Shown here one piece after another: positions 16,099 to 47,668 of a stretch of DNA of 64,000 nt. A program made the position numbers and the translations under genes. This stretch comes from Moorella glycerini (GTDB taxonomy: Bacteria > Bacillota > DSM-521 > Neomoorellales > Neomoorellaceae). The first letter of the stretch is position 1. Every line of letters begins with the position of its first letter. The stretch covers positions 3,236,909-3,300,908 of the forward strand of contig NZ_CP046244.1 in assembly GCF_009735625.1 (NCBI RefSeq), given 5' to 3'. A model generated the notes under the pieces. The model was not told the origin of the DNA. It made no database searches and worked only from the letters and a program-made list of their open reading frames with translations.

Positions 16099-16116
16099 AA
16101 CCCTCTCCCCTCCAGC

Positions 16117-19246: not shown

Positions 19247-19256
19247 TTACCACCAT

Positions 19257-19433: not shown

Positions 19434-19469
19434 ATAAAATTAAAACCCCTGCTCCAAAGAAAACAGGGG
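19434..19469 (-). terminator. First leader terminator, expression platform of riboswitch 1
   Basis: CCCCTG pairs with CAGGGG and is followed on the minus strand by TTTTAATTTT. It lies directly downstream of the intact cobalamin riboswitch, so ligand-dependent transcription termination is the likely mode. Confidence 0.8.
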
Positions 19470-19509
19470 ACATGCCGTTTCCCCATCCTGCGTAGGGAGC
19501 ACCAGCTGC

Positions 19510-19668
19510 TACGGCAAGCACCAGGTCTCCTGGCTCGGATTCACCGTTCCCCCACGCCTTCCCAGGTCAAAACCCAGTGGCCTGATGTGGGGTCACTCCC
19601 CCTTACAGTGGCGCGACCGCGCCGGCTTTGCACCGGCTTCCCTTGATGCTAGCCAGAGACACCATTTT
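19510..19668 (-). promoter_or_regulatory. Cobalamin riboswitch 1 (leader of the btuFCD-cobN operon)
   Basis: Minus-strand features of the adenosylcobalamin class are all present in order: AAGGGAAGCCGGTGCAAAGC, the box GCCACTGTAAGGGGGAG, a second CCACTGG, CTGGGAAGGCG, and the closing AGCCAGGAGACCTGG. It lies about 370 bases upstream of the btuF-like gene, with two terminators and a second diverged element in between. Established for this class: ligand binding lowers expression of B12 uptake and synthesis genes. Confidence 0.95.
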
Positions 19669-19743
19669 TTATAATACATTCTACAAAAATAATCCAAAAT
19701 CCTCCCTGACCTCGTTAATTTTATACCTTCTGCTTTAAAAGGA

Positions 19744-21610: not shown

Positions 21611-21623
21611 TGCTCGTCCTCCC

Positions 21624-24984: not shown

Positions 24985-25094
24985 AAATAGCAATCCTCCT
25001 TTTTAAGGTTCTTTAAAGCAACATAAAATCCATGTTTTCCTGCCGGCAAAAATGCAAAATAAAAACTCACCTCCCTATCCGCGCAGGTTGGTCA

Positions 25095-25275
25095 GGCAAA
25101 GGGCAACAGGCAGGTTTCCTGGCTCAGGTTCATTGGCACCCCACGTCTTCCCAGGCTATAAAAGCCCAGTGACCCATGGGTGGGGCTCCTCACCTTTACA
25201 GTGGCGGGACCGCGCCGGATTCGCACCGGCTTCCCTTTTAACTTTTACCCCTCGAGGTAAAAGCACCCGTTCCTC
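25095..25275 (-). promoter_or_regulatory. Cobalamin riboswitch 2 (leader of the Opp/Nik-type operon)
   Basis: The minus strand shows AAAAGGGAAGCCGGTGCGAA, CCGGCGCGGTCCCGCCACTG, TCACTGGG, CTGGGAAGACG and the closing GAGCCAGGAAACCTGCC, all landmarks of the adenosylcobalamin class. It ends about 110 bases before the binding-protein start, with no separate terminator as clear as in the other two leaders, so translational control or a compact switch is possible. Confidence 0.95.
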
Positions 25276-25310
25276 AGCTGATATACATAAATTTAATAAA
25301 TTTAATATTA

Positions 25311-31736: not shown

Positions 31737-31808
31737 CCGGGGGTGTTAAGGTGCCAGGTTAGAAGCAAAACTTCTATCAAGGGATGCTAAAATTTGGGGG
31801 GTAAGAGA

Positions 31809-32477
31809 ATGAACAATTTACGGCAAGCGATGCGGGAACGATGGAATACAAAAGGTTATCATTATGACCATAGGGGCAATCACGGTACCAAAAGTCCCGC
31901 TGAAAAGGAACGATGGACGAAAATCCTTGAACAACTGGGACCCGGACCGCTGGCCGTGCTGGACGTAGGTACCGGCACAGGATTTGTAGCGTTGCTCCTG
32001 GCAGAAATTGGCCATCGCGTAACGGGGATTGACTGGTCGACCACCATGCTTGACCAAGCCAGAATGAAGGCCCGTGAGGCAGGGCTGGAGATTGCTTTTA
32101 TCGAAGCAGAAACAGAATCGCTTCCTTTTGCCGCCGCGTGCTTTGATGCGGTGGTAGCCCGGCACGTGCTCTGGACCCTAACGGATCCCCGCCAGACCCT
32201 TACTGAGTGGTACCGGGTACTGAAGCCACATGGAAGGGTTCTCGCCGATTTCTCTCCCCGCCGAAGCGGCACGGCGGGCCACCACTATCCCCTTGAAATT
32301 GAAAAAAAGTTGCCGCTGAACAAGGCGCTTCATCCGGCAGAGGTGGTTGCGCTTTTTGAGGATGCCGGGTTTACTAATGTTCAGGCTGAAGCCCTCCCTC
32401 TCCATCCCGACAGCAATGCAGTAACCTACCTAATTAGCGGTTTTAAGCGCGGGGGGTGTGGACATGGCTCCGCATAA
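31809..32477 (+). CDS. Class I SAM-dependent methyltransferase
   Basis: A 222-residue Methyltransf_11-type enzyme: motif I VLDVGTGTGFVALLLAE, the acidic residue in VTGIDWSTTM, then FDAVVARHVLWTLTDP and EWYRVLKPHGRVLADF. Substrate unknown. It is the first gene of a unit with a DUF4198 protein and a FecBCD-type importer, and related methyltransferases are found in such metal or metallophore transport loci. ATG 31809 follows GGGGGG; the TTG at 31794 is an alternative. Confidence 0.83.
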   Translation: MNNLRQAMRERWNTKGYHYDHRGNHGTKSPAEKERWTKILEQLGPGPLAVLDVGTGTGFVALLLAEIGHRVTGIDWSTTMLDQARMKAREAGLEIAFIEAETESLPFAAACFDAVVARHVLWTLTDPRQTLTEWYRVLKPHGRVLADFSPRRSGTAGHHYPLEIEKKLPLNKALHPAEVVALFEDAGFTNVQAEALPLHPDSNAVTYLISGFKRGGCGHGSA

Positions 32478-33144
32478 CATCTGGATCGAATGCCCGCACC
32501 GGGCAAGGGCCGGTGAGGAGTTAACTGCCCGGATTGGGTTTGGCCATAACTTTATTGTCCAGGGGAAGGCCGATCCGTTGCGAACGGGTGCCTGGCTGTT
32601 TACCCCTGGAGGCAAAAAAGTTCCCCTGGCTGTAGATGCAGGCGAAAAAGAGCTTACTGTCGCCTTTGTACCCGGCGAAGGGGGTGTATATACCCTTTTA
32701 TGTGAGTATGACGGAAAAATATGGAGCATTGGCCGGGATGGCCGCCACCTGCGCGGCCCACACACTGACCACCCGGGCATAGACATTACAAGATCGTTTT
32801 ATGCTTACCAGTTTGCCAAGACCTTTATAAACGTTGAAACAGATTACCCCTGGCCGGGTCCGTTGGGCTTGGAGCTAGAAATTGTACCTCAACCCCCGGC
32901 CCGTGGGCAATTAGAGGTAGCGGTGCTTTACGAAGGCCGACCCTTAAAAGGCATATCAGTGCAGGCCTTCCGTACCGGTGATCCCTCTCCCTATACGACC
33001 TGTACAGGCGCACAAGGTATGGCGCGTTTCCCATTTACAAAGGGTAGCTGGATGATCCTGACCAATTATGCCAATCCGCAAAAGGGTGTACCCGGCCAGT
33101 ATAATGAACGCTACCTGACCGCCATTTTTACTCTAAAAACTTAG
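32464..33144 (+). CDS. DUF4198 protein (possible nickel/cobalt-binding accessory)
   Basis: A 226-residue protein with the DUF4198 arrangement: an N-terminal beta domain (MAPHNIWIECPHRARAGEEL, FGHNF), a central loop, and a C-terminal peptidase-regulatory-like beta sandwich (VAVLYEGRPLKGISVQAF). Histidines in the first residues (APH) and GFGHNF may bind metal. DUF4198 proteins often accompany nickel or cobalt importers. No clear signal peptide is seen, which is unusual for an extracytoplasmic binder. ATG 32464 overlaps the methyltransferase gene by 14 bases. Confidence 0.75.
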   Translation: MAPHNIWIECPHRARAGEELTARIGFGHNFIVQGKADPLRTGAWLFTPGGKKVPLAVDAGEKELTVAFVPGEGGVYTLLCEYDGKIWSIGRDGRHLRGPHTDHPGIDITRSFYAYQFAKTFINVETDYPWPGPLGLELEIVPQPPARGQLEVAVLYEGRPLKGISVQAFRTGDPSPYTTCTGAQGMARFPFTKGSWMILTNYANPQKGVPGQYNERYLTAIFTLKT

Positions 33145-33158
33145 AGGTAACAAATCAA

Positions 33159-34292
33159 ATGCTTTTATCGGATATAAAAACCAATACCGCTGGCGTAGCG
33201 GATAACTTTTTAGACATACAAAAGATATACACCCAGCATGTTATAAAAAAGATAACCTTCCTGGGTTGCCTGGCCTTTCTTTTGGTGGCAATGATATTAG
33301 TTTCCGTTTGTGTCGGGACGGCTTTTTTAACAATTGGCGAGGTAGGGCAGGTTATTGCCAACAAACTAATTCTGTCCTCACCTGCTTCATTTAATAGTTT
33401 AGCGGATACAGTAGTCATGCAGTTAAGGCTACCACGCATTTTACTGGCCATAGTTACCGGGATAAGCCTTGCTGGCGCGGGAGCGGTGATGCAAGGCATT
33501 TTACGTAATCCCCTGGTTGACCCCTATACTCTAGGGCTATCCGGCGGCGCTGCCTTTGGTGCAGCTCTGGCTATCGTCCTGGGGACGAGTATTTTAGGCC
33601 CGGCTTTTAGTGTTGCAGGAAAGTATGTAATCGCTGCTAATGCTTTTATTTTTGGCACGATCACCATGATTCTCGTATATGGTATCGCCCAGATAAAAGG
33701 GATAGCCCCCGAAACGCTAGTTCTGGGAGGGGTAGCCCTGGGTTATCTTTTTGCGGCTGGGGTTTCTGCTTTAAAATACCTGGCCGCGCCTGAGGTTTTA
33801 AAAGATCTGGTAGTCTGGCTAATGGGTGGTATGTGGGGGGCCAGTTGGGACCAGGTGAGGTTGCTATTTCCCCTGGTACTGCTATGTTTGGCTGTTTTAT
33901 TGCGTTACTCCTGGGATATAAATACCCTTGTCGCCGGGGAAGAGATAGCCGTCAGCCTGGGAGTAAAGGTAAACCGTTTACGCTTGATCTGTCTGACGGC
34001 ATCCACCCTGGCAGCATCGGCCACCGTGGCTTTTACCGGAATTATTGGTTTTATCGGCCTGGTAGCGCCGCATATCTGCCGTATGCTCATCGGCAACGAC
34101 CACCGCTTTTTAATTCCCTCTTCCTGTTTACTGGGGGCAGTACTACTTCTAGTTGCTGATACTCTGGCTCGTACCATCATGGCCCCTATAGAAATCCCGG
34201 TAGGGATTATTACCTCATTAATTGGCGCTCCCTTTTTTATGTACCTGCTGGTAAAGAGAAAAAGGGGGTGGTGGACTTCCAGTTCGCGCTAA
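33159..34292 (+). CDS. ABC importer permease, FecCD/BtuC type (second set)
   Basis: A 377-residue permease with the same landmarks as the copy at 16899: LPRILLAIVTGISLAGAGAV, QGILRNPLVDPYTLGLSGGA, GVKVNRLR and GIIGFIGLVAPHICRMLIG (listed in parts). The first 45 residues are polar. It is clearly a close paralogue of the 16899 gene. Forms an importer with the lipoprotein and ATPase that follow. Confidence 0.9.
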   Translation: MLLSDIKTNTAGVADNFLDIQKIYTQHVIKKITFLGCLAFLLVAMILVSVCVGTAFLTIGEVGQVIANKLILSSPASFNSLADTVVMQLRLPRILLAIVTGISLAGAGAVMQGILRNPLVDPYTLGLSGGAAFGAALAIVLGTSILGPAFSVAGKYVIAANAFIFGTITMILVYGIAQIKGIAPETLVLGGVALGYLFAAGVSALKYLAAPEVLKDLVVWLMGGMWGASWDQVRLLFPLVLLCLAVLLRYSWDINTLVAGEEIAVSLGVKVNRLRLICLTASTLAASATVAFTGIIGFIGLVAPHICRMLIGNDHRFLIPSSCLLGAVLLLVADTLARTIMAPIEIPVGIITSLIGAPFFMYLLVKRKRGWWTSSSR

Positions 34293-34332
34293 ATTAGGTA
34301 AAAAGTAAAAAAAACAGAAAGGGGATTTTTTA

Positions 34333-35412
34333 ATGAAGAGAAGTATCTGTATCTTAGTCATCTTAATCGCCACAGTAATGCTATTATCAATACTTGCCGG
34401 CTGTGGGCAAAAGAATAACCAGGTTGCGACACCAGAGAAGACGCCGGCGAAAAAGATAATTACAGTTAACGATTTAAAAGGACGCCAGGTTGAGGTAAAG
34501 GCCCCCCCGGAAAGGGTGATAGTCCTGCAAACTTCTAACGGTGTGCTTACAGAAATAATCAAAGCTTTAGGTGTAGAAAAAACCGTTGTTGGTGTTAATG
34601 ATAAGACAAAAACCGAAACGAAATGGCCTTCATATGTATTATCGGTCCCTTCCGTAGGAGAAACCGGTACACCTGACCTGGAAAAAATCATTTCGCTTAA
34701 ACCAGATCTAATAATTGCGTGGGATTTTAAGCCAGAAGTGTTAACCAAGTTTGAGCAAGCGGATATTCCTGTAGTTTTGGGTTATGGGATGGGAGCTAAG
34801 AAATTGCTGCCCTCAATAACTAGCCTCGGCCAGATCTTCAATCAGGAAAAACGGGCGAATGAACTCCTCGGGTATATTGAGAAGCAATACCAGGCGGTAA
34901 ACGAGCGAATAAAAGGGTTGTCGCCGGGACAAAAGCCAAAGGTATACCTGGAAGGTCCGGGTGAATGGATGACCTATGGTCAAGATAGGGAAGAAACCAG
35001 GTTGATTGAAATGGCAGGTGGCACCAGTATAATCAAAGAAAACACGTCCGGCCACCCGGTAATCAATTCCGAATGGGTTTTAAAAGAAAATCCCGATGTT
35101 ATTATCAAGTTTGTCTGGAAAAGCGACCAGATGGGCTTCGATGTCACCAATACGGCTAGCTTAAAGGCCATTTATGAAGAAATCTGCTCGCGTCCCGGGC
35201 TTAAAGATACCAAGGCAGTAAAAAATAACCGGGTATATATCATGGGAAACTTTATGACCACGCCGAGAAATGCAGCTGGGATTTGGTATCTAGCCAGGTG
35301 GCTACACCCCGACCTTTTTAAAGATATCAACCCGGAAGCAATCCACCGGGAGATACTTAAAAAGTTCTGTAACGAAGAGTTGCGTGGTACCTGGGTTTAC
35401 CCTGAAAAATAA
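34333..35412 (+). CDS. Metal-chelate/corrinoid-binding lipoprotein, FecB/BtuF type (second set)
   Basis: A 359-residue lipoprotein with signal helix and lipobox LAGC at about residue 24, then VNDLKGRQVEVKAPPERV, the usual entry to the TroA/BtuF fold, and YLEGPGEWMTYG in the hinge region. The tail RGTWVYP matches the ELKGTWVYP tail of the btuF-like gene at 18098, so the sets share ancestry. The ligand may be a metal chelate rather than cobalamin, since no cobalamin riboswitch precedes this unit. Confidence 0.88.
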   Translation: MKRSICILVILIATVMLLSILAGCGQKNNQVATPEKTPAKKIITVNDLKGRQVEVKAPPERVIVLQTSNGVLTEIIKALGVEKTVVGVNDKTKTETKWPSYVLSVPSVGETGTPDLEKIISLKPDLIIAWDFKPEVLTKFEQADIPVVLGYGMGAKKLLPSITSLGQIFNQEKRANELLGYIEKQYQAVNERIKGLSPGQKPKVYLEGPGEWMTYGQDREETRLIEMAGGTSIIKENTSGHPVINSEWVLKENPDVIIKFVWKSDQMGFDVTNTASLKAIYEEICSRPGLKDTKAVKNNRVYIMGNFMTTPRNAAGIWYLARWLHPDLFKDINPEAIHREILKKFCNEELRGTWVYPEK

Positions 35413-35478
35413 AGATACCGGCGGCGACAGGTTCCCATTAAGTGAACCTGTCGCCGCCCTAAACATGAGGTGATTTTA

Positions 35479-36282
35479 ATGAAAATACTTATTCAAGACA
35501 TAAATTTTTCTTACGGCAGCCATGACGTACTGCAGGGTGTGAATATGGAGATATCTCCCGGACAAGTGGTATGTATCGCCGGACCTAACGGTTCCGGGAA
35601 AAGCACCTTGCTCAAGTGCTTAGCCCGGGTGCTTATCCCTAAAAGCGGGGTCGTTTATTTAGACGGCAGGGAAATATCACGCCTCGGGTCCCGGGAGCTG
35701 GCCCGGCTGGCAGGTTATGTCCCCCAAAACGGCGGGGAAATTTTCCCTTTTACAGTCCTGGAAATAGTACTTATGGGACGCAAACCTCATCTTACCTGGG
35801 GAGTTACCCGGCATGATCTAGAAGTAGTTGCTAATGTGTTGAAATTTATGGGCATTGGAGAGATGGCCCAGCGATCACTGGCAGAATTAAGCGGCGGCCA
35901 AAAGCAAAAAGTTTTTATTGCCCGGGCGCTGGCTCAGGAACCACAAGTGTTTCTCCTTGACGAGCCCACCAGCAGCCTGGACATCAAGCATCAGTTGGAG
36001 GTCCTGGAAGTGGTAAAAGCTTTAGCGCGCCGGCAAAGTTACGTAGTGATCATGGTGCTTCACGATTTAAACCTGGCCGCCAGGTTTTCGGATCATATAG
36101 TGATGCTGAAAGATGGTCGGATCTATGCGGCAGGGAAACCGCGGGCAGTAGTCACGCGGGAGAATATCGGTGCAGTTTACGGGGTGGAAGCATTAATTAT
36201 GGAGAGCAGCTTTGGCCCCTATGTGATTCCTGTAGGACCCGTACAGGGAAGCGATATATGTCTGCAGGCAGCGGCTTTTTAG
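35479..36282 (+). CDS. ABC importer ATP-binding protein, FecE/BtuD type (second set)
   Basis: A 267-residue ATPase: Walker A GPNGSGKST, signature LSGGQKQKV, Walker B VFLLDEPTSSLD, switch VLHDLNLAARF. It is closest in this window to the ATPase at 16117. ATG 35479 lies six bases after GAGGTG. The unit ends here, converging with the CbiZ gene; the 134 bases between hold no gene I can support. Confidence 0.88.
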   Translation: MKILIQDINFSYGSHDVLQGVNMEISPGQVVCIAGPNGSGKSTLLKCLARVLIPKSGVVYLDGREISRLGSRELARLAGYVPQNGGEIFPFTVLEIVLMGRKPHLTWGVTRHDLEVVANVLKFMGIGEMAQRSLAELSGGQKQKVFIARALAQEPQVFLLDEPTSSLDIKHQLEVLEVVKALARRQSYVVIMVLHDLNLAARFSDHIVMLKDGRIYAAGKPRAVVTRENIGAVYGVEALIMESSFGPYVIPVGPVQGSDICLQAAAF

Positions 36283-36416: not shown

Positions 36417-37526
36417 CTACCTGCAAAGGCCAGACTCCGGACCATCATACACCCTGTCAGCTATAACCCGGTTTATCAGCCGGATAAACAACCTGCTCAA
36501 GCTACGCACCGGGTCCTCTCCGGTCGCCGCAGCAAGGCAGATTTCTCCTTCGTTATATCCCTGCAGCAACCTTAGCCCGGCCGCGATAACTGCTTCACCC
36601 GGGAGCAATCCCCATTCATATTCGTCCCACAGGTGGATGAGGCTGGCGGCCAGGGCCACCAGGCCCGGCTCGCCCTGGATGTGTTGCAGTCGCGCTAGAT
36701 AGCTGTCCCGGTCCAGTCCCAGGCCTTCCTCCCCGGCCTGACGCCAGAAGTCTTCCGCACTGACGCCGTACCTCTCCAGGCGTGCCAGGAAACTGCACTG
36801 GCGCCGGGCATTCAGGCCGGTCTGCTTTTCTAAAGCTACTTTTACTGCTTCCTTCACTGTCACACCGATTAATTCCCCCAGTTTTGCGTGCTTGCCGGCA
36901 TCAGTAAAATAATGGTGGCTCTGGGTATTGGCAACGGTAATGATCTGGTCGGTCCCCGAACCGGTGGCAATTCCCCGGGAATAACGGCTGGGCGCCATGA
37001 GCTCCTGCAGGGCGGCAGCTTTGGCTTCCGTAGCCGTAACTATGGAGCGCACCAGGGCGTGGGGAGGCAAGTTCCCGTTTATCAGAAGGATAATATTAAT
37101 AGTGCCGGGGACAAGGACCCATTGCCCGTCCCTCTCGTAATAATCGGCCCTGTCCCCGGCCCGCCCGCCGTTAACGTCGATCCCGCCGGTGACGATAGCC
37201 GTCACTGTTAGTTCCCGGAAACCATTCGTTTTTATAGCGGCGTTTTCCATCCTGGCGGCGGTAAGCAACCCGGCGGTGTGACGGTAGGGCAGGCCGAGCT
37301 TGCCGGCCAGATACTCCAGGTAGCCTTCCGCACTGCCTCCCGGGAGGCTGGCGGGATCGTGCTGATGGGGCGCCAGGTGATGGTTAAATACCGCCTGCAG
37401 GTCTTCCCGGCAGCCGCCGTTGACCCAGGCCGTGCTTACCACCCGCCGCGGCCCGGGGAAGTAGACGATAAGGGTCTCCTCCCGCCGGTGGATTTTTTCC
37501 CCGCTGTTTAACTCACAAATTAGCAT
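36417..37526 (-). CDS. cbiZ: Adenosylcobinamide amidohydrolase CbiZ
   Basis: A 369-residue protein with the CbiZ core: VVSTAWVNGGCREDLQAVFN, GLLTAARMENAAI, VTAIVTGGIDVNGGRAGD, GTINIILLINGNLPP and GIATGSGTDQIITVANTQ. CbiZ cleaves the aminopropanol linkage of adenosylcobinamide or pseudocobalamins to adenosylcobyric acid, letting the cell rebuild salvaged corrinoids with its own lower ligand. The C-terminal 130 residues extend beyond the minimal domain. Last gene of the ECF operon; ATG 37526 overlaps the S-component gene by 14 bases, which fits salvage of what that importer brings in. Confidence 0.9.
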   Translation of the reverse strand: MLICELNSGEKIHRREETLIVYFPGPRRVVSTAWVNGGCREDLQAVFNHHLAPHQHDPASLPGGSAEGYLEYLAGKLGLPYRHTAGLLTAARMENAAIKTNGFRELTVTAIVTGGIDVNGGRAGDRADYYERDGQWVLVPGTINIILLINGNLPPHALVRSIVTATEAKAAALQELMAPSRYSRGIATGSGTDQIITVANTQSHHYFTDAGKHAKLGELIGVTVKEAVKVALEKQTGLNARRQCSFLARLERYGVSAEDFWRQAGEEGLGLDRDSYLARLQHIQGEPGLVALAASLIHLWDEYEWGLLPGEAVIAAGLRLLQGYNEGEICLAAATGEDPVRSLSRLFIRLINRVIADRVYDGPESGLCR

Positions 37527-38289
37527 CCTCTTCTCCTTCTACTAGCGGTAGTAAAGTCACTTCCAGTTTACGGCGAAAACGCTCCAGGATTTTTACGAAG
37601 CCGGGGCCAAAAAGTAAATAAAAGGCAGCGTTGCCCAGGGCATGAAAGGTGTCAAACCAGAAGCTGGCTGCATAGGCGGCTGCAAAGGACTGCCAGTTCA
37701 AGGGGTGAACAAAGGCCGTCCAAAACCACAGGTTCATTATCCAGCCAAAAAAATAACCCCAGAGAAAACTAAAGACAGTCATAAACTTTTTCCCGGCCCG
37801 GGGAAAAAGGATTTTAACGACCCCTGCCGAGCTGCCGGCCAGCCCCCAGGCAAACATCTGCCAGGGCGTCCAGGGTCCCTGCCCCAGGAAAAAGTTGGAC
37901 ACCAGGGCCGCCGTAGAACCGACCATAAATCCGGCGCCGGGCCCGAAGACAAATCCGGAATTAATTACCAAAAAGGTAACCGGTTGAATACTGGGCAAAG
38001 CAGCAAAAGGAACCCGGCCCACGGCGGCAAGGGTACCCAGCATGGCGACTACGGCCACCTCCCGGGAAGAAACCCGCCCTTGCTCAAAGCCCCAGTACAG
38101 GAGGAGCAGGGCCAGGATGATTATAGCCGATGCCAGCAGTCCCCACCCCTGGCCCAGCAGGAGGACTTTGAGCTTGATGCTGGCCAGCAACAAGGCCAGG
38201 ATTGCCAGCCAGGCAAGGGGAAACAGTATTTTACGCCCATAAACCACCACCAAAGCCTCCCATCTCCCGCCCGGACCCACGCCATCCAC
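37513..38289 (-). CDS. ECF transporter S component, predicted corrinoid specificity
   Basis: A 258-residue membrane protein with about seven or eight hydrophobic segments: two N-terminal helices, then a region like other ECF S components (VAMLGTLAAVGRVPFAALPSIQ, FVFGPGAGFMVGSTAALVSN, GPWTPWQMFAWGLAG). S components confer substrate choice. Placement between the ECF ATPase and CbiZ in a B12-riboswitch operon that also encodes transcobalamin-like proteins points to cobalamin, cobinamide or another corrinoid; the sequence alone does not prove it. Confidence 0.85.
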   Translation of the reverse strand: MDGVGPGGRWEALVVVYGRKILFPLAWLAILALLLASIKLKVLLLGQGWGLLASAIIILALLLLYWGFEQGRVSSREVAVVAMLGTLAAVGRVPFAALPSIQPVTFLVINSGFVFGPGAGFMVGSTAALVSNFFLGQGPWTPWQMFAWGLAGSSAGVVKILFPRAGKKFMTVFSFLWGYFFGWIMNLWFWTAFVHPLNWQSFAAAYAASFWFDTFHALGNAAFYLLFGPGFVKILERFRRKLEVTLLPLVEGEEDANL

Positions 38290-38310
38290 CAGGAAAGCAG
38301 GGCCCGCCGG

Positions 38311-40038
38311 CTAGCCCGCCGGTACGGTCCGGGCGGCGGGCCTTCCGGGTGCGTCAGCCGGCGGGCTCAGGGAACTGCAACCCGGTCCAAACCAAGCCGG
38401 CACCAGCCGCTCCAGGGCGTCCGGCACGGTCAGAACGCCGTCAACATAGCCGCGGCACATTTTCCCCATCTGGGTGGAGTAAAAAACCGACTGGCCCAGG
38501 ACCTGGTGCTTGGGGCCATCGGCAACGACGCGCCCGGCAAACAGCAGCAGCACCCGCGTGGCGTAGGCGGCAGCAAATTCTACATCGTGGGTGACCAGCA
38601 CCACACTAACGCCTTCCCTGCTTAAACCTGTCAGCATCTCTCCCAGTTCGTCCTTCAACCAGTAGTCCATGCCCCGGGTCGGCTCGTCCAGGACCAGCAG
38701 GCGGGGCCGGGTTACCAAAACGGAAGCCAGGGCTACCCGCTGGCGTTCGCCGCTGCTCAAATCGCGGGGATTTACTCGCCGGCAGCGCTGGAGAGCCAGT
38801 TTTTCCAGCAGGTCGTCTACTACGCCGTCATCGGGAAGACCGCAATTTTTCAGGGTGAATAATAATTCCTCTTCCACGGTATCCTGGAAGAGATAATCGT
38901 TGGGATTCTGGGAGAGATAGGCCACCCTGCCGGCCGCCGGCCGGCCCCTGCCGCTGAGGTCGCGGCCCATTAGCTGCACCCGTCCCCGCCCCGGCTTTAA
39001 CAGGCCGGCCATGGTCTTCAGGAGGGTGGATTTCCCGGCGCCGTTATTGCCCAGGACAGCCACCACTTCACCGGCATTAACCTGCCAGCTGATGTCCTGC
39101 AAGGCTTCTCTACCGTTGGGATAGGTAAACCATACCTTATCCATGGTCAAAAGCGGCCCTCCCGGATTTTCGCCGGCCACCGGCTGGAGGGGAACAGGAG
39201 TTCTCACCTTAAAGCTGCTGCGCAGCAACCGGCGCCCTTCCTTGACGGTAATCGGTATCGACGGGCTCCCTGCCCGGGCGAAAAAACGGGCCACCGGGGG
39301 GACAAAGGGGATATCCCGCTGCACCGCCCAGCGGGCCAGTTCTTCCGGCGCACCTTCATATTTGATCTGGCCGTCTTCCATGAACACTACCCGGTCAGCC
39401 AGGTGGAAACACCTTTCCAGCCGCTGCTCAATTAAAATGATGGTCAGGCCCATTTCCTCATTTAACCGCTTTATGAGATTAAGAAATTCCTCGGCCGCCA
39501 CTGGGTCCAGCTGGGAGGTAGGCTCGTCTAAAACCAGCACCTGCGGCTGCATGGCCAGGACGGCCGCCAGGGCCAGCTTCTGCTTCTGTCCCCCGGAAAG
39601 GTGGTTCGTAAATTCCCCTCGCGCTTCCGCCAGGTCCAGGAAACTCAAAACCTCAGCCACCCGCCGGGACATCTCCGCCTGGGGCAGGCCCAGGTTTTCC
39701 AGGCCGAAGGCGACCTCGGCTTCGACGCTGGTCATAACCAGCTGCTTTTCCGGGTCCTGGAAGACCATGCCCACTTCCCGGGCCAGTTGGCGCCGGGCCA
39801 TCTGGCCCATATCCCGCCCTTGAAAATAAACCTTACCGCCAATCCTGCCGCCGTAAAAATCCGGGATCAACCCGGCCAGGGCCCGCGCCAGCGTGGATTT
39901 GCCCGATCCCGAACCGCCGGTTACCAGCAAAAACTCCCCTTCTTCGATGCTCAAATTCATCCTTTGCAGGGCCGGGCGTTCCCTGTCCGGGTAATAGTAG
40001 GTCAAATTTTCGCTTTGAAATAAGGGCACCGCTGCCAC
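38311..40038 (-). CDS. ECF transporter energising ATPase, two fused ABC domains
   Basis: 575 residues with two complete ABC modules. Module 1 (about 5-240): Walker A GGSGSGKST, signature LSGGQKQKL, Walker B VLVLDEPTSQLD. Module 2 (about 296-530): Walker A GNNGAGKST, signature LSSGERQRV, Walker B LLVLDEPTRGMD. It replaces the EcfA1/EcfA2 pair. The last 40 residues are a proline-rich tail. GTG 40038 overlaps the end of the T-component gene by 37 bases. Confidence 0.92.
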   Translation of the reverse strand: MAAVPLFQSENLTYYYPDRERPALQRMNLSIEEGEFLLVTGGSGSGKSTLARALAGLIPDFYGGRIGGKVYFQGRDMGQMARRQLAREVGMVFQDPEKQLVMTSVEAEVAFGLENLGLPQAEMSRRVAEVLSFLDLAEARGEFTNHLSGGQKQKLALAAVLAMQPQVLVLDEPTSQLDPVAAEEFLNLIKRLNEEMGLTIILIEQRLERCFHLADRVVFMEDGQIKYEGAPEELARWAVQRDIPFVPPVARFFARAGSPSIPITVKEGRRLLRSSFKVRTPVPLQPVAGENPGGPLLTMDKVWFTYPNGREALQDISWQVNAGEVVAVLGNNGAGKSTLLKTMAGLLKPGRGRVQLMGRDLSGRGRPAAGRVAYLSQNPNDYLFQDTVEEELLFTLKNCGLPDDGVVDDLLEKLALQRCRRVNPRDLSSGERQRVALASVLVTRPRLLVLDEPTRGMDYWLKDELGEMLTGLSREGVSVVLVTHDVEFAAAYATRVLLLFAGRVVADGPKHQVLGQSVFYSTQMGKMCRGYVDGVLTVPDALERLVPAWFGPGCSSLSPPADAPGRPAARTVPAG

Positions 40039-40931
40039 CCCCAGCTCAATACCACCGGCACGGATAAAGCAAGAAGGATAATAAGTAAAAGGATAACGGT
40101 CATGGGGCCCTTGATTAAGTAGTCCAGCTGCGGGTAAAAACTAAAAGTGCTGCACCCCCGGACCTGGCCGTAAACTGCCGCTGCCAGGGCCAGGAGGGTG
40201 CTGCCCAGGCAAAGGCTGTCCCGGGGCCGCCAGGCATCCTGCCGGTAGGAGGAACGCCGGCCGCTGCCGAAGGCCCGCGCCTGCATGGCTTCGGCTATTT
40301 CCAGGGAATCTTCCAGGGAGGACAGGAGGAGGATATTCATCAGGGCCGCATAGCGAGAGAACCTTTCGGTTAACGTTCCGGCGTGAAAGTCGACGCCCCT
40401 CAGAATCTGTACTTCCCGGATGTTATCAAGCTGCCGCACCATGGCCGGGAACATCCGGGTGGCCAGGGAGAGCACCAGCGCCGACCGCGAAGCAAAACGC
40501 GCCAGCAAGCCTAAAACCTTATCGGGGTGAACGATAAGATTATAAAGGCAAAAAACGCTCATGATGGTCAACAGGCGCACGCCCATGGCCGCGCCGTAGC
40601 AAACGGCCTCCAGGGAGACGGTTAAACGGCCGATAACCGGCAGGCGCGGCCCCCACCAGATAATAGTTTCACCGGCGCGGGCCACCAGGGAGTTGAGAAT
40701 GATCACCAGTACCGCCATACCCAGGCTGATCCTTAAATAAATCTCCCAGGCAGCCAGGCCCTGGGCGGCGCCAATGGCCAGGATAACGACTAAGAGCAGC
40801 CCCAGGAGGTAAAGGGGGTTGGTAAACAGCAGGGCCAGCACAAGTAAAAGGCCCAGGTAAGTCAGGGCTGCCGCCGGGTGCAGGCGCTGTAAAAAGAGGC
40901 CTTTGTCCTGGTAAAAAAATTGCTCAAACAT
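40002..40931 (-). CDS. ECF transporter T component (EcfT)
   Basis: A 309-residue membrane protein with five or six helices and an EcfT-like second coupling helix (QILRGVDFHAGTLTERFSRY) and the AMQARAFGSGRR motif, which contacts the ATPases. It has an N-terminal LQRLHPAAALTYLGLLLVLA entry. Forms the scaffold that joins the S component to the fused ATPase. Confidence 0.9.
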   Translation of the reverse strand: MFEQFFYQDKGLFLQRLHPAAALTYLGLLLVLALLFTNPLYLLGLLLVVILAIGAAQGLAAWEIYLRISLGMAVLVIILNSLVARAGETIIWWGPRLPVIGRLTVSLEAVCYGAAMGVRLLTIMSVFCLYNLIVHPDKVLGLLARFASRSALVLSLATRMFPAMVRQLDNIREVQILRGVDFHAGTLTERFSRYAALMNILLLSSLEDSLEIAEAMQARAFGSGRRSSYRQDAWRPRDSLCLGSTLLALAAAVYGQVRGCSTFSFYPQLDYLIKGPMTVILLLIILLALSVPVVLSWGWQRCPYFKAKI

Positions 40932-40960
40932 CTTCCGGGCAGCCCTCCAAAATGCACTCC

Positions 40961-42358
40961 TTAGTTTGCATTTTTTATGCTCACCGCCTGGGAAGCTGCC
41001 TCCCAGTCTACCTGGTAACCAAAGGCTTCCGCCACAAACCGGGCCGGCAGATAGGTGCGGCCCTCCCTCAGCAGGGGGGCGACGCCGAGGCTCCTGGCCC
41101 GGCCATTGACGAAGCCGGTATCCTCGCCAATAACCAGGGTTACCGTAACGCCATCTTTGCTCAGGGTAACAGTCCTGGTCTTCTCATCCCATCTGATGCC
41201 GTCCTCCCCCACCCCCAGGGCATAGGCCAAATAACGCACCGGGACATAGGTCCGGCCTTCTTCAATAAAAGGCGGCGCTTCCATGGCCCTGACGTCTTTT
41301 TTCCCGCCGGCCACAACCAGGTAGCTCCTGTCGCCAACAATAAAGCGCGCTTCATACCGGGCTGGGGCAGGCCGCGGGGAGGCCAGGGCCGTCCCCTTTT
41401 CCTCTTTTAATCGTTCGAAAAAGGGCTGGCCAAAATAAATGCCGGCCAGGGCCATTAAGGCCTGGTTGGTTGCCATTTCATTGCTGCCCGCCCCGGCAAG
41501 GTGTTCAAAGGAGCCGTCAGGCAACTGGAAGCGGAGCAGGGCTGTTAAAACATCTCCCCCGGCTCTGTTAAAATCGCCTTGAAGTGGGTCGAGGCCAACC
41601 GCTGTCAATCCTTCAATGACCATGTGGCAGCTCTCCGGGTTTTCCGCCCCCCAGGACTCAAAACTGCCATTTGCTTTTTGGGCCTTTGCCAGGTAAGCCA
41701 CTGCCCGCTGGACAACCGGGCTGTCGCTTTTTTCGCCCAGAGCCCCCAGGGCCATTAATGCCATGCCGGTAGAGTCCACATCGGCAGTTTCCTGGTCCCT
41801 CACGTCCCAGTAAAAGGAGCCGTCGGCGTGCTGCCTGGCCGCTAACCAGTTGAGGGCCTTATTTTTATCGGGAATATCGGCGCCGGCGGCGTGCAAGGCC
41901 AGAATGGCCCAGATGTGGGTGTTAAGTAAAACCTCACCACCCTGGCTTAGATTGTCGGCAAACTTACCGCTGGGCAGCTGGGCCTCCTGGATCTTTTTTA
42001 TCAGATCCTGCCCGTGATAATTATAAGGGTTCCCCCCGGCAGCCAGGACGGCCAGGACCAGGGTGGCATAATCATTCATTTCCCCCGACTGGACAGCCTG
42101 GGCCAGCACTTTTTCACCGGCCAGCCCGGCCCGGGTGCCCTTTAAATCCCTTCCCGCAGCTGCCAGGGCTATATAGCTCCAGGGCTGCAGCATCCCCCTG
42201 CTTTTCTCCCTGTTTAACAAGTAATCGGCAGCCCTGTTCAACGGCGTGCCGGCCCTCTCTTTAGCTCTGAGGGCTGCGGCGGGCTTGGCAGCGCCGGCCA
42301 TAAGCAAAAAGAAAAGCAGAAGCGCCGCTGCCAGGGGGGATATCCTGCCCTTGTCCAT
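40961..42358 (-). CDS. Secreted transcobalamin alpha-domain-like protein with copper-amine-oxidase-type stalk domain
   Basis: A 465-residue exported protein. After a signal peptide (about 1-30), residues 30-320 hold repeated helices of the prenyltransferase/squalene-cyclase toroid type (repeats such as LNWLAARQHADGSFYWDVRD and AKAQKANGSFESWG), the fold of the alpha domain of transcobalamin and intrinsic factor. Residues 337-465 are two short beta repeats of the copper-amine-oxidase N-terminal 'stalk' type (GRTYVPVRYLAYALG, GRTYLPARFVAEAFG). No DUF4430 domain: that half is on the next gene upstream. Likely on the cell surface, contributing to corrinoid capture. Confidence 0.83.
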   Translation of the reverse strand: MDKGRISPLAAALLLFFLLMAGAAKPAAALRAKERAGTPLNRAADYLLNREKSRGMLQPWSYIALAAAGRDLKGTRAGLAGEKVLAQAVQSGEMNDYATLVLAVLAAGGNPYNYHGQDLIKKIQEAQLPSGKFADNLSQGGEVLLNTHIWAILALHAAGADIPDKNKALNWLAARQHADGSFYWDVRDQETADVDSTGMALMALGALGEKSDSPVVQRAVAYLAKAQKANGSFESWGAENPESCHMVIEGLTAVGLDPLQGDFNRAGGDVLTALLRFQLPDGSFEHLAGAGSNEMATNQALMALAGIYFGQPFFERLKEEKGTALASPRPAPARYEARFIVGDRSYLVVAGGKKDVRAMEAPPFIEEGRTYVPVRYLAYALGVGEDGIRWDEKTRTVTLSKDGVTVTLVIGEDTGFVNGRARSLGVAPLLREGRTYLPARFVAEAFGYQVDWEAASQAVSIKNAN

Positions 42359-42382
42359 GCCTTCCCAACCTTTCCAGGTAAA

Positions 42383-43150
42383 TTAGGGTGAAACCGCCTT
42401 TAAGTCCTGCCAGGCAGGCCCGGGGTTATCTATGCTTTCGCTGTACCACCAGATAATCTTGTCGCCAGGGTTAACGACCTTCTCGCTGGCTGCCACCATA
42501 GGGGTTTCGCCGTTTACTTTATACATCCAGCCGCGCATGCCTTTGTTGGCCTGGCCGGCTATGCTCTGGACCAAATTGCCGTACACGGGGCTCAGGCTGT
42601 ATTGCACGCCGGTGGCGTCCAGGGCACCCAGGGCTGTTAACCCCCATTTGTTGTCTTTATCAACCGTCACCGGGGCAGGACCATACAGGATCTGGCCTTT
42701 CATGCCCACTATTGCTATCTCCACCAGGCAGCCCCCGGCGGCAGGACAGGCCCCTTCCCCACTGCTGCTGCTTTTACTAACTGCCGCCTGGAGAGCAGCG
42801 CCCTTGCCGGCATCATTCTGGCCGCCCGCCTCCTTTGCGGGCGGTGCCGGGCGGGGAACGCCGCCAGGCGCGGCGGCTTTCACACCGCCGCTTATAGTGC
42901 CGGTACCCGCCTTTCCCCCCGCCGTTTTTTCTATCCTATCAGGGGTTGCAGTTCCCTGGGGGTTTCCGGCACCATCTGGAACGCCGGCGGCAGCAGCCCT
43001 GCCCGCCGGTAAAGAGACCCCGGCGGGTGTGGGGGCAGCGCCACCCTCGCGTGGCCCGGTGTTGGCGGTTTGCTGCTGGTAGACCAGCGGCCCGATTAAA
43101 GCCAGCAGGATTACCAGGACCGCCAGGGGGTAAAGAAATTTCTTCTGCAC
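42383..43150 (-). CDS. Membrane-anchored DUF4430 (transcobalamin beta-domain-like) protein
   Basis: A 255-residue protein: an N-terminal membrane anchor or signal helix (PLAVLVILLALIGPLVY), a Pro/Gly/Ala-rich linker (about 27-135), and one DUF4430 domain (about 140-250) with VEIAIVGMKGQILYGPAPV, WGLTALGALDATGV, GMRGWMYKVNGETPM and DKIIWWYSES. DUF4430 is classed as related to the C-terminal domain of transcobalamin, which covers the upper face of bound cobalamin. GTG start with GAGG eight bases upstream. The domain strongly resembles the one inside the large S-layer protein encoded upstream. Confidence 0.87.
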   Translation of the reverse strand: MQKKFLYPLAVLVILLALIGPLVYQQQTANTGPREGGAAPTPAGVSLPAGRAAAAGVPDGAGNPQGTATPDRIEKTAGGKAGTGTISGGVKAAAPGGVPRPAPPAKEAGGQNDAGKGAALQAAVSKSSSSGEGACPAAGGCLVEIAIVGMKGQILYGPAPVTVDKDNKWGLTALGALDATGVQYSLSPVYGNLVQSIAGQANKGMRGWMYKVNGETPMVAASEKVVNPGDKIIWWYSESIDNPGPAWQDLKAVSP

Positions 43151-43282
43151 CTAACAATTCCTCGCTTTGCCGGTAATCTCAGGTCCTTTAAGTACCTCCG
43201 GCCGGCATGAACTACAGCAGCGGTGAGGAGTACCGCAAGGCACACCGGCGCTCCTCACCGTTTTAAGCCTACCTCATTTCCT

Positions 43283-46200
43283 TTACTCAGTCACCAGCAT
43301 CCGGTAGACCATCACCGCGCATTCCGCCCGGCTGGCCGCAGCTCCCGGCCGGAAGGTGCCGTCTTCGAAGCCTTTCACTAACCCGCTGGCGGCGGCGGCA
43401 GCCACGCTGTTTCTTGCCCAGGCAGAAATTTTATCTTTATCCTTAAAGGCCGGCTTTACTTCGCCGGTGGGCAGGTTCATGGCCCGGACCAGCATGGCCG
43501 CCACTTCCTCGCGGGTTATGGTTCTATCGGGGCGGAAGGTGCCGTCTTCATAACCTTTGACCAGGCCGTTGGCGGCGGCGGCAGTTACCGCCCCTGCGTA
43601 CCAGGCGTCACCTTTGATGTCCTTAAATGGGTTCTTATTATCTTCCTGCGCCTCCAGGCCCAGAGCCTTGACCAGAAGGCTGGCAAATTCCGCCCTGGTC
43701 ACCGCCCGGCCCGGCTCGAAGTGGCTGCCGTCTACCCCGGCCACGACGCCGGCGCCGGCCAGCTCTTCAATGGTATCTTTCGCCCAGCCGTAGCTGGCAG
43801 GGGTCACATCGGCAAAGGACTTCCGGGCTTCCCTGACAAATACGGCAAAGTCGGAGAAGTGGTTTACCCGGGCCACAATCAGGCCCTTGGAGACATCGAC
43901 CACCGCCGGGATAGCCACCCACTCGCCTTTGACCTTATCATACCAGGCCAGGGCCAGGTTTTCCGCCCTGGCCAGGGGCGGAAGGGCAAACTTCAGGGTT
44001 ATGGTCACCGGGACAGCAAAGGTCGTGCCCTCGGGGCCGAAATTGTAAACTGCCGTGATCGGCCGGTATCCTGCCGGCGGCGGGGCTGGGGCATTGCTAC
44101 CGCCGTTGCTGCCGGGAGTTTCGCTAAAGGCAGCCTTCTTAACGGTTATTTCTACATCCTTCGTCAACGCTCCAGCCGGTATAGCCAGGGCTATTTCCTC
44201 CTGGCTATCCGTTATGGTAGCTCCCGCTGCAGCCGCGACCTTGCGGGCCAGGTCAATTGTGTTTTGCGCCAGTTCCTTTTTCAGTTTAGCCATTTCAGCC
44301 CGGTTCATGGCCTTATCGCTGCCGACTACTACCACTGCCTTTGCAACTTCCCCTAAGGGCCCCACTTGAGCTGCACTTTCTTTCAGCTCCAGCAGCCGGT
44401 CGATCTTTTCCAGGGCCTCCAGGGCGGCGTCAGAGGCCTGCAAAGTACCGGGCAGTCTTTTATTCTGCTCCTGGAGGCTGGCCGGTGTAGCCTCTGCCGG
44501 CGTAACGGACGTACTGCCTTTAACCAGGCTCTCCCAGGTCGGTCCAGGGGAGCTCCAATCCGTGCTGTACCACCAGATAATCTCGTCGCCGTCCTGGATG
44601 GTTTTCTGGGAAGCACCCACCATGGGCACGCTGCCGTTTACCTTGTACATCCAGCCGTTCAAGCCGCTGTTGGCCTGGCCGGCGATGCTTTTGACAAAGC
44701 CGTTATCATCGACATAAGGGAGGCCGGTGGCGTCCAGGGCCCCCAGGGCCGTCAGGCCCCACCTGTTGTTTTTGCTCACCATAACAGAACCGGGCCCGTA
44801 GAGGAGCTCGCCGTTCATGCCCACCACGGCAATATTGACGGTACAGTAGTTGCGCTCCGGCGCCGAAGTTGCAGGTGCAGCAACATTGAGCGTGGCCGTC
44901 GCCGTCAGGCCGTTGTAAGTGGCCGTGACTACCGTCTGCCCGGCCTGAAGGGCGGTGACCAGGCCGTAGACGCTGCCAGAAACACTGGCGATACCGGCAT
45001 CGACCACCGACCAGGCGGCATCGTTGGTCACGTCGCTGCCGGCGCCGTTAAAATAAACCTGCACCGCCTTAAACTGCTGCTGGCCGCCAGGGTTGAGGCT
45101 GGCAGCAGCCGGCCGGACGAGGAGGCCCAGGGAAGTCCCGGGGTCGATTGTTCCAGCCAGGATAAGATAGGTATAAAGGGCTTCGCTGGCGTCTAAAACA
45201 TTTCTATAGGCGCCAAAGCTGCCGTCTTCGTTCAAGGCCTTGAGAATCATATAGGACACCGGCGATAACCCCGCGGTGCTGCGCCAGCTCAGAGGATCCT
45301 GTCCCAGTCTTTTGAGAGTGATGATCGCTTCGGCGCTATCCACTACCGGATCGTCGGCCCAAAAATCAGTAGTATAACAAACGCTACCGTCAGGTTGCAG
45401 CCACTTCTTTAGATAGGCCAGGCCCTTATCGATGGCGCCCAGGATTTGCGGGTCTTTTTGTTGATAGCCTGGCAGGTAAGTCAAGGCCCGGATGGCCTGG
45501 GCGGTAGACATGAAGTCGGGACCCCAGCTTTCCCCCCAGGCGCCGTAAGTGGCCTCGGCCACGCTTTGCTTGCCCAGGATGTAATCGCGGGCATAAACCT
45601 CATTGATTACGCTAATCTGCCCCGCTTCGCCCAGGGCGATATAGGCCCACATGTCGCTGTAAACGCTGTTGTCAAAACCGCGAGGCGAGTGCCGGTCCTT
45701 TAAAAGATTTACCAGCTTACTTGCTCGGCTTGTATCATTCCAGCTATTTAGGGCCAGCAGGCACTGGGCTATGGTTTTCGTCCGGGAGCTTTTCACCCAG
45801 GGAGAGCCGCCGCCGGCATAGTCGGCATACGTTTTACCTAAAGATTTCAGGGCAATCAGGGTTTCGGCCGTAGCAAAGGTGCTGTCCCACCGGGCCGGGA
45901 TGGCTCCGGTATCTACGTCCTGGATATCTTCGAGGTAAGCCAGGCCCTCCTGGATGGCTTTATAAACTTCGCTACCTTCTATCTTCGCCCCGTCGAAGTA
46001 GCTTAGAGCCGTAAGCACCTGGGCCGTTAAATCCGGCTCTTCCGGGTAATAACCACCCCAGGCCGCCCCGGCTGCCTGCCCCCAGGCGTTTTTATGTTCA
46101 TGTTTAAAACCATTAAGGTAGTTTAAAGCCGATGCCTGGTTAATTCCATTGAGCTTGCCCGCTTTACCCAGGGCGGTTAGAACCATGACATCGTCATAGA

Positions 46201-47056
46201 TGCTGTTACCAAAGTAGATTGCGCCGTTGCTGCTTGTATTTTGCTTGCTAATAATAGCGTTTGCAAGGGTTGTAAGGGTGTCAATGTAACTTGAATCCGA
46301 ATCTACAGCATGAAGGGCTGTTAGTTCCTTCGCCAGGTAAACAGCGTCCAGTCCTGAAGGATTGCTGGCAGCAGCCCGGGCCGAGTTAATAATGGCATCC
46401 TTCAAAGATTTACCATTATAAACCCAGCCGCCTACCGAAAGGTTTTCACCGGCGTTGACCAGAGCTTCGACGCAGCGGTAATCAAAGTTCCAGCCGTTAA
46501 CTTCATAGGGCAAGCTGCCGTTCTGGTAACGGTTCTGGAAAAAATAAACCGCCCTGCTGATGCTGTCTTGAACCTGGCTATAAATAGCATCATTAACGGG
46601 CAAATCCGGTTTTACCAGGGCCAGGGCCTGCAGCGGCGCCTTGGTGCCATAATCATTGCCCAAAGGGCCAAAGCTGCCATCGGCATTCTGGGTGGCCAAG
46701 ATGTAGGTAAGTAAATTATTATTACCCAGCATGTCGGCCAATTTTTCGAGGCTACCCTTTAGGGTTTTATCATCCTTGGTCCATTGCTTGCCGCCTGTCC
46801 ATTTCTGCTCATCGCCCAGATTTTCGCCCGCCCGGGTAAGAACGTAAGCCGCATAGCCGTCAATCTTTTCTCCGGCCTGGTAGCGGTCGGATATAAATTT
46901 TACGGCCTTAGTGGCCAGATCCTGGGCACTATAGATCGTAGCCGCATCGGCGGCCATAGCCTTGCCCGGGACCAAGAGGGGGACCAGAAAGCTAAAAAGA
47001 AAGCATATCGTTACTGCCAGGGCTAGAAAGCGCCTGTTACACCTTTTATAAAACAC
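43283..47056 (-). CDS. S-layer-anchored transcobalamin-like protein (prenyltransferase toroid, Big2, DUF4430, ZU5-like, 3x SLH)
   Basis: A 1257-residue surface protein, first gene behind riboswitch 3. Signal peptide ends near AMA-ADA (about 36). Residues 40-640 hold many helical repeats of the alpha/alpha toroid type (LTYILATQNADGSFG, IALGEAGQISVI, LKKWLQPDGSVCY), about twice the length of one toroid, so two may be present. About 643-735 is a Big2-like Ig domain, 742-850 a DUF4430 domain (GWMYKVNGSVPM), 940-1075 a ZU5-like stretch (IPAGAL, FGPEGTTFAVPVTITL), and 1085-1257 three SLH repeats for cell-wall polymer binding. Alpha plus beta domains reproduce the layout of vertebrate B12 carriers. 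Role inferred: corrinoid capture at the cell surface. Confidence 0.88.
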   Translation of the reverse strand: MFYKRCNRRFLALAVTICFLFSFLVPLLVPGKAMAADAATIYSAQDLATKAVKFISDRYQAGEKIDGYAAYVLTRAGENLGDEQKWTGGKQWTKDDKTLKGSLEKLADMLGNNNLLTYILATQNADGSFGPLGNDYGTKAPLQALALVKPDLPVNDAIYSQVQDSISRAVYFFQNRYQNGSLPYEVNGWNFDYRCVEALVNAGENLSVGGWVYNGKSLKDAIINSARAAASNPSGLDAVYLAKELTALHAVDSDSSYIDTLTTLANAIISKQNTSSNGAIYFGNSIYDDVMVLTALGKAGKLNGINQASALNYLNGFKHEHKNAWGQAAGAAWGGYYPEEPDLTAQVLTALSYFDGAKIEGSEVYKAIQEGLAYLEDIQDVDTGAIPARWDSTFATAETLIALKSLGKTYADYAGGGSPWVKSSRTKTIAQCLLALNSWNDTSRASKLVNLLKDRHSPRGFDNSVYSDMWAYIALGEAGQISVINEVYARDYILGKQSVAEATYGAWGESWGPDFMSTAQAIRALTYLPGYQQKDPQILGAIDKGLAYLKKWLQPDGSVCYTTDFWADDPVVDSAEAIITLKRLGQDPLSWRSTAGLSPVSYMILKALNEDGSFGAYRNVLDASEALYTYLILAGTIDPGTSLGLLVRPAAASLNPGGQQQFKAVQVYFNGAGSDVTNDAAWSVVDAGIASVSGSVYGLVTALQAGQTVVTATYNGLTATATLNVAAPATSAPERNYCTVNIAVVGMNGELLYGPGSVMVSKNNRWGLTALGALDATGLPYVDDNGFVKSIAGQANSGLNGWMYKVNGSVPMVGASQKTIQDGDEIIWWYSTDWSSPGPTWESLVKGSTSVTPAEATPASLQEQNKRLPGTLQASDAALEALEKIDRLLELKESAAQVGPLGEVAKAVVVVGSDKAMNRAEMAKLKKELAQNTIDLARKVAAAAGATITDSQEEIALAIPAGALTKDVEITVKKAAFSETPGSNGGSNAPAPPPAGYRPITAVYNFGPEGTTFAVPVTITLKFALPPLARAENLALAWYDKVKGEWVAIPAVVDVSKGLIVARVNHFSDFAVFVREARKSFADVTPASYGWAKDTIEELAGAGVVAGVDGSHFEPGRAVTRAEFASLLVKALGLEAQEDNKNPFKDIKGDAWYAGAVTAAAANGLVKGYEDGTFRPDRTITREEVAAMLVRAMNLPTGEVKPAFKDKDKISAWARNSVAAAAASGLVKGFEDGTFRPGAAASRAECAVMVYRMLVTE

Positions 47057-47188
47057 GCTGTTCCCTGCCTTTCCGAAAATTTAGCCCCTTAAATTTAACG
47101 GTTTAACGAGCACCACCCCTGGACAACGGCGCCATCAAACATCACCGCTGCCTTCAATCATCGCCCTGCGGCCACCAAAAACGAATAA

Positions 47189-47243
47189 ACGGCCTCAACT
47201 AACACCTCCCTGCGAACTCCCCGGGTGGGTTAGAATAGGCCGT
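47189..47243 (-). terminator. Second leader hairpin of riboswitch 3 leader
   Basis: ACGGCCT/AGGCCGT outer stem and CTAAC/GTTAG inner stem, almost base-for-base the hairpin at 19263-19317. The U-tract is interrupted (TTTATTCGTTTTT), so termination may be weaker. Between it and the coding start, 47057-47188 holds only a faint riboswitch 3'-end remnant (GTGCTCGTTAAAC). Confidence 0.6.
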
Positions 47244-47356
47244 CCATAACAGTCCGGGCGCATCGTAAACTTCCAGTATTCCCTTTTTGGAAGTTCCTTG
47301 CCGAACCGGCTGGCAGCATTTAAGCCGGCCCCTCGGGGCCAGGCGCCTACCCTGCT
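47244..47356 (-). promoter_or_regulatory. Diverged riboswitch-like leader element, copy 2
   Basis: Counterpart of 19318-19433. The TGGCC...GGCC(A/G) hairpin, CTTAAATGC, GCCAGCCGGT and GATGCGCC blocks are all kept. Here AACTTCCA pairs perfectly with TGGAAGTT, whereas copy 1 has two G-U pairs at the same place. The canonical cobalamin core is missing. Confidence 0.55.
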
Positions 47357-47390
47357 AAAAATAAAACCCCTGCTCCAACTAGAACAGGGG
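47357..47390 (-). terminator. First leader terminator, expression platform of riboswitch 3
   Basis: CCCCTG/CAGGGG stem followed on the minus strand by TTTTATTTTT, directly downstream of the riboswitch, matching 19434-19469. Confidence 0.78.
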
Positions 47391-47429
47391 ACATGCCGTT
47401 TCCCCATCTTGCGTAGGGAGCACCAGCAA

Positions 47430-47668
47430 TTCCGGCAAGCACCAGGTTTCCTGGCTCGGGTTCACCGTTCCCCCACGCCTTCCCAGCCTGCCCTCAGCCC
47501 CGTTAACTGCCCCGTCCGGGACACTTTTTAAAAAAGTTAACCCGTTAGGCGGTTAAAACCTGCTGAGGGCCGGACCAGTGGCCTGATGCGGGGTCACTCC
47601 CCCTTACAGTGGCGCGACCGCGCCGGCTTTGTACCGGCTTCCCTTGATGCCTGCGTGGATATTTAAAT
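47430..47668 (-). promoter_or_regulatory. Cobalamin riboswitch 3 with enlarged variable arm
   Basis: All adenosylcobalamin-class landmarks are present on the minus strand: AAGGGAAGCCGGTACAAAGC, GCCACTGTAAGGGGGAG, GGCCACTGG, CTGGGAAGGCG and GAGCCAGGAAACCTGG. Between the second CCACTGG and CTGGGAAGG, where riboswitch 1 has about eight bases, there is an extra arm of roughly 90 bases (about 47488-47577) closed by CCCTCAGC/GCTGAGGG. Leads the S-layer protein, ECF and CbiZ operon. Confidence 0.94.

Follow-up and report, generated by a model that had tools for sequence, protein, structure and literature searches.

Transcobalamin-like surface proteins and a CbrT-type ECF importer in a probable corrinoid salvage operon of Moorella glycerini

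The window analysed here is a 64,000-nucleotide stretch of the Moorella glycerini genome. On its minus strand a cobalamin riboswitch precedes seven open reading frames (ORFs), which in operon order encode a large S-layer protein (1257 aa; 43283..47056; ORF, Pfam and structure prediction), a DUF4430-only protein whose N-terminus holds a membrane segment (255 aa; 42383..43150; ORF and Pfam), a secreted alpha/alpha-toroid protein (465 aa; 40961..42358; Pfam Prenyltrans/SQHop), the CbiQ-like transmembrane component EcfT (40002..40931; PF02361, E 8e-13), a fused EcfA-EcfA' ATPase (38311..40038; two ABC_tran domains, TIGR04520 above cut-off), an S component of the CbrT family (37513..38289; Pfam ECF_trnsprt) and a CbiZ-like adenosylcobinamide amidohydrolase (36417..37526; PF01955, 204 bits versus 27). 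The gaps between successive ORFs are 132, 24, 29, -37, 21 and -14 bases. The original prediction had named these parts, in this order and on this strand, and ORF coordinates, the RF00174 match and Pfam found all of them present. The riboswitch aptamer (RF00174; 47444..47644, minus strand) scores 79.4 bits (E 6e-18), well over the gathering threshold of 31.5; the covariance-model match runs from model position 45 to 169, one arm being lengthened by an 82-nt insert. Between the aptamer and the first gene, a consensus scan alone picks out a terminator-like hairpin followed by a T run (47367..47390, minus strand; 10 pairs, 6 of them G-C).

The window holds other genes of related interest. A second riboswitch (19684-19503, within 9131-19684 of the window) stands ahead of BtuF-, BtuC- and BtuD-like genes and then CobN, with a ChlID-type cobaltochelatase further downstream. 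A third (25285-25092, within 19744-25285) stands ahead of a five-gene Opp/Nik-type nickel/cobalt ABC transporter. On the plus strand, 31794-36282 encodes a methyltransferase, a DUF4198 protein and a second FecCD/BtuCDF-like importer, convergent to the ECF operon; the riboswitch search gave no match for these plus-strand genes. The genome as a whole (3.56 Mb, 99.97% complete) possesses exactly two DUF4430 domains, both in the operon. It also carries a CbiD gene and thus at least part of the pathway of corrin-ring synthesis, so that import would probably add to synthesis and not substitute for it.

The large protein consists of a signal peptide, an alpha/alpha-toroid region (aa ~44-637; 45146..46927), a Big_2 domain, a DUF4430 domain resembling the transcobalamin beta domain (44564..44752; PF14478, 56.6 bits), a ZU5-like stretch and three SLH domains (43286..43822; Pfam, and PDB entries 6bt4/3pyw of the S-layer protein Sap, E 3e-18). 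The SLH anchor, toroid and DUF4430 first read from the sequence thus stand, but that reading left out the Big_2 domain between the latter two and the weak ZU5-like stretch after DUF4430. Pfam did not detect the toroid of this protein, which was revealed by structure prediction alone. The smaller partner described as toroid-only does have a toroid by Pfam but also carries a C-terminal Cu_amine_oxidN1 domain. A phmmer search with the whole large protein retrieves mainly SLH and Big_2 relatives, and among the matches listed from plasmid records only the SLH region is matched. In Moorella mulderi (locus L027, 8288-9468; also L115) the large protein is split in two, with 182 aa in the toroid fragment and 206 aa in the SLH fragment; its DUF4430 is lost and the remaining operon is intact.

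Kinship of the toroid and DUF4430 with the vertebrate B12 carriers had been claimed, and the fold matches are real (Foldseek, VIA). Given 57 sequences, AlphaFold modelled the large protein from residue 37 to 852 at pLDDT 93.5 and pTM 0.82 (me0dc041a5e9f). The model's best two-domain matches in the PDB are transcobalamins (7qbf, 4zrp, 8ixt, 2bb6); Foldseek lists haptocorrin and intrinsic factor as well. The toroid itself matches transcobalamin 7qbf/4zrp/2bb6 with E-values of about 1e-5 to 1e-6. The alignment with intrinsic factor 2pmv takes in 326 residues and both domains (Z 18.2, rmsd 6.3 A), with Big_2 lying in between. Across both domains the superpositions of transcobalamin and intrinsic factor have an rmsd of 6-14 A (Foldseek, VIA), a high value since the domains are placed differently and Big_2 separates them. 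Matches of the toroid to terpene cyclases are as good as, or better than, those to B12 carriers, and a toroid fold on its own therefore does not identify such a carrier. The VIA alignments of the toroid fall into two sets, at model positions 77-371 and 5-602, each matching some 260 residues; they suggest that the modelled region apparently comprises two alpha/alpha toroids, one nested within the other.

The beta-grasp half of the comparison draws on a natural DUF4430-toroid fusion (locus L166), modelled over 411 residues at pLDDT 92.9 (AlphaFold). The DUF4430 part of this model has fold matches to the beta domain of human transcobalamin, 5no0/5np4 (for 5no0, TMt 0.71 and rmsd 2.8), and to 3u7z of Ruminococcus gnavus (TMt 0.85). 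Searched against PDB sequences, the DUF4430 profile found no transcobalamin. The link between the two families therefore comes from the fold and from a C-terminal fragment of intrinsic factor whose match to PF14478 (E 2.8e-4) falls slightly short of the gathering threshold. When bacterial and human DUF4430-type domains are aligned, no residues but one Ser-Ile pair and one Trp stay invariant. The human transcobalamin beta domain by itself binds cobalamin and cobinamide, and in human transcobalamin the apo domains stay apart and assemble only with ligand (PMC5599065). Such ligand-dependent assembly fits the occurrence of DUF4430 and toroid as separate proteins; it also means that an apo model cannot probe a corrin cleft.

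Single-chain versions occur in either domain order. At L166 (4293-5750), L165 (6519-7988) and L167 (1-1335) DUF4430 precedes the toroid, a permutation of the transcobalamin order, and each of the three fusions bears an LPxT-like motif together with a membrane segment at its C-terminus. A lipoprotein-like protein at L044 (8157-9728) has the toroid followed by a DUF4430-like domain, as in animal transcobalamin; this domain matches PF14478 weakly (E 0.0076).

The operon encodes a complete ECF set: EcfT, both ABC ATPase domains and the S component. CbrT reportedly owes its name to Rodionov et al. in 2009. A profile built from 14 S components and searched against the PDB matches CbrT of Lactobacillus delbrueckii (6fnp_A) at E 1.1e-32 over 174 residues, the next best solved S component scoring E 0.32. 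By sequence the operon's S component is a CbrT homologue; since ECF-CbrT of L. delbrueckii transports cobalamin and cobinamide (PMC5997447), corrinoid uptake is predicted. A CbiMNQO-type cobalt importer was set aside, the S component being CbrT-like. At L053, L085, L172 and L174 the ATPase frames are unusually long (781-896 aa), and the L085 frame has matches to the S component as well as to the fused ATPase, which suggests further fusions of ECF genes.

The arrangement recurs well beyond M. glycerini. The closest named locus, in M. stamsii DSM 26217, shows 92% identity across the DUF4430 query. The 12 loci from genomes of this family have the riboswitch where upstream sequence extends, then the large protein, DUF4430, an optional toroid protein, EcfT, EcfAA and EcfS; RF00174 lies in the same place in orthologous loci as in M. 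glycerini. A scan of named genomes with a DUF4430 alignment gave 79 loci, among them Thermosediminibacter, Desulfofundulus, Pelotomaculum, Syntrophomonas, a Sporosarcina MAG and Sharpea porci. An ECF gene is present in 71 of the 79 and all three ECF genes in 60, and nhmmer finds a cobalamin riboswitch upstream in 51 of the 59 whose upstream sequence is long enough. Recurrence of the order in the family and in these named loci indicates that it is not a product of chance.

Association with B12 genes, put forward as something that a genome survey could check, proved strong. In a first draw from the phylum DUF4430 was found in 62 of 199 genomes. The riboswitch count covered 58 DUF4430 genomes outside the genus with 73 DUF4430 clusters, at least 45 of which are on the same strand as, and downstream of, an RF00174 match; about 0.5 would be expected from riboswitch density. 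A second draw of 159 genomes, spread over many families, was centred on a Sporosarcina genome of the same phylum and overlaps the first, and so is not independent of it. It contained 47 genomes with both DUF4430 and a CbrT-like gene, two with DUF4430 only, one with CbrT only and 109 with neither (Fisher p ~1e-36, a value that overstates independence as the genomes are related by descent). A same-strand DUF4430 lies within 12 kb of 43 of the 50 CbrT-like genes. CbiD occurs in 21 of the 49 genomes that have DUF4430 and in 48 of the 110 that lack it, so in this sample DUF4430 carriage has no link to loss of corrin synthesis. The expected place of CbiZ in the unit holds for M. glycerini, where a PF01955 gene is present, but not for most relatives: it is found at 3 of the 12 family loci and 11 of 135 in a wider set, and is an optional part of the cassette.

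Taken together, these data indicate that the minus-strand unit is probably a riboswitch-controlled corrinoid salvage operon in which surface capture is followed by hand-over to an ECF importer. We propose that when cellular cobalamin is low, transcription would read past the riboswitch terminator, as the anatomy of the leader suggests. The S-layer-anchored protein, with its toroid and DUF4430, would then act like transcobalamin and capture cobamides or cobinamide outside the membrane, and the separate toroid protein and the membrane-anchored DUF4430 protein would probably join in this capture. The corrinoid is predicted to be held between the alpha/alpha toroid and the beta-grasp domain, folds that are themselves predicted. 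The short DUF4430 protein would hand the ligand on to the dedicated ECF importer by way of its CbrT-type S component; near-perfect co-occurrence and adjacency point to these two as partners. Inside the cell CbiZ, a family whose clipping of corrinoids has been established elsewhere, would clip unsuitable corrinoids and allow the cell to rebuild its own cobamide. Capture and hand-over by the surface proteins are well supported as a prediction; binding, delivery and regulation we infer.

It is conceivable that ECF-CbrT imports alone and that the DUF4430 and toroid proteins serve corrinoids in another way, as a store in the S-layer or as a means of denying them to competitors. The L. delbrueckii ECF-CbrT, purified with the ECF module only, transports cobalamin (PMC5997447), and the S-layer anchors of the large protein would be expected to place it far from the membrane. 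Import by CbrT alone does not readily account, however, for the presence of DUF4430 in 47 of the 48 genomes with a CbrT-like gene. In most loci the short DUF4430 gene immediately precedes EcfT or EcfS: the gene right after it (n=89) is EcfT in 55 cases, a toroid gene in 21 and EcfS in 7. The smallest cassettes, at L082, L084, L088 and L091, consist of exactly DUF4430 and CbrT, and at L173 of Sharpea porci toroid, DUF4430 and CbrT occur together. We regard import by CbrT alone as unlikely.

Another possibility is that the surface proteins bind, and the importer takes up, cobalt or a precursor of the lower ligand such as dimethylbenzimidazole. Cobalamin riboswitches control cobalt transporters too, the nickel/cobalt-type ABC transporter behind the riboswitch at 25285 being an instance, and the EcfT of the operon is of the CbiQ family. 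We know of no solved structure of a CblT-type S component. Set against this, the S component is CbrT-like and not CbiM, the surface proteins have a predicted transcobalamin fold and CbiZ works on corrinoids, which together make such a substrate very improbable. A generic S-layer, adhesive or polysaccharide-binding role for the surface proteins, which would share domains with transcobalamin but bind no corrinoid, is less probable still: toroids are common to glycosidases and terpene cyclases, and the beta-grasp SLBB superfamily, as delineated in the relevant part of one survey, also contains polysaccharide export proteins and ComEA (PMC1796856), but riboswitch control and pairing with CbrT across dozens of genomes, and natural DUF4430-toroid fusions in either order (L165-L167, L044), all speak against it.

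Corrinoid capture and delivery thus being the preferred reading, a bolder claim can be framed: that the CbrT-type ECF importer of this phylum has a near-obligate extracellular delivery subunit of the transcobalamin beta-domain type, and that the DUF4430 and toroid machine is a living bacterial relative of the animal B12 carriers. We judge the case for this claim to be evenly balanced. To our knowledge, descriptions of ECF transporters usually have them operate with no soluble substrate-binding protein. If binding is real, bacteria of this phylum feed an ECF importer through a transcobalamin-type surface capture machine, DUF4430 gains a function, and a transporter class thought to need no extracellular partner acquires one. 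A Gram-positive origin of the animal carriers, as proposed in 2007 in the treatment of the transcobalamin clade considered below, would then become testable. Moorella species are acetogens whose carbon fixation requires corrinoid proteins, and their corrinoid supply is therefore of practical interest.

Several known systems invite comparison. BtuG/BtuB of Bacteroides has an unrelated fold, belongs to the outer membrane, is TonB-dependent and is only functionally analogous. The shared feature is surface capture of B12 that feeds an importer, in Bacteroides by an exposed lipoprotein (PMC6143338), in M. glycerini by prediction only. Vertebrate transcobalamin, haptocorrin and intrinsic factor share with the large protein the alpha/alpha toroid, in the latter a predicted fold, and the DUF4430-type beta-grasp domain. 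In transcobalamin-type carriers a short linker joins the toroid to the beta domain and both close on one corrinoid. The M. glycerini protein, in contrast, has Big_2 between the domains, an apparently double toroid part and an SLH anchor, and in bacteria DUF4430 and toroid also exist as separate proteins.

ECF-CbrT of L. delbrueckii (6fnp) has a homologous S component and the ECF module in common with our system. Its gene lies in a cluster nrdJ-cbrS-cbrT-pduO (PMC5997447), and in L. rhamnosus a DUF4430 gene adjoins rtpR (PMC9963975); from these neighbourhoods CbrS is probably a DUF4430 protein. Unlike that cluster, the M. glycerini operon itself encodes the ECF module, with its fused ATPase, as well as the large S-layer protein and the toroid protein.

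Burroughs, Balaji, Iyer and Aravind described in 2007 a transcobalamin clade of secreted or anchored proteins with SLBB and toroid domains (PMC1796856). In the sections devoted to this clade, the toroid may precede or follow the beta-grasp domain, the operon contains a second paralogue and CbiO and CbiQ are neighbours; a role in B12 scavenging is proposed, examples include Moorella, Desulfotomaculum and Syntrophomonas, and animals are suggested to have acquired their B12 carriers by transfer from Gram-positive bacteria (PMC1796856). The same sections state that the carriers are usually found without key B12 biosynthesis enzymes (PMC1796856), which is not borne out in our sample, CbiD being equally frequent with and without DUF4430. 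The domain pair, the surface location, the often two SLBB proteins, the CbiO-like ATPase and the CbiQ-like gene are all shared. The M. glycerini operon is of the kind predicted in 2007, and the idea of B12 scavenging is not new. To that account, as given in those sections, we add the identity of CbrT, statistics on riboswitches and co-occurrence, the near-obligate pairing, structure models, the CbiZ link, the fused and permuted forms and the lack of a link to loss of corrin synthesis.
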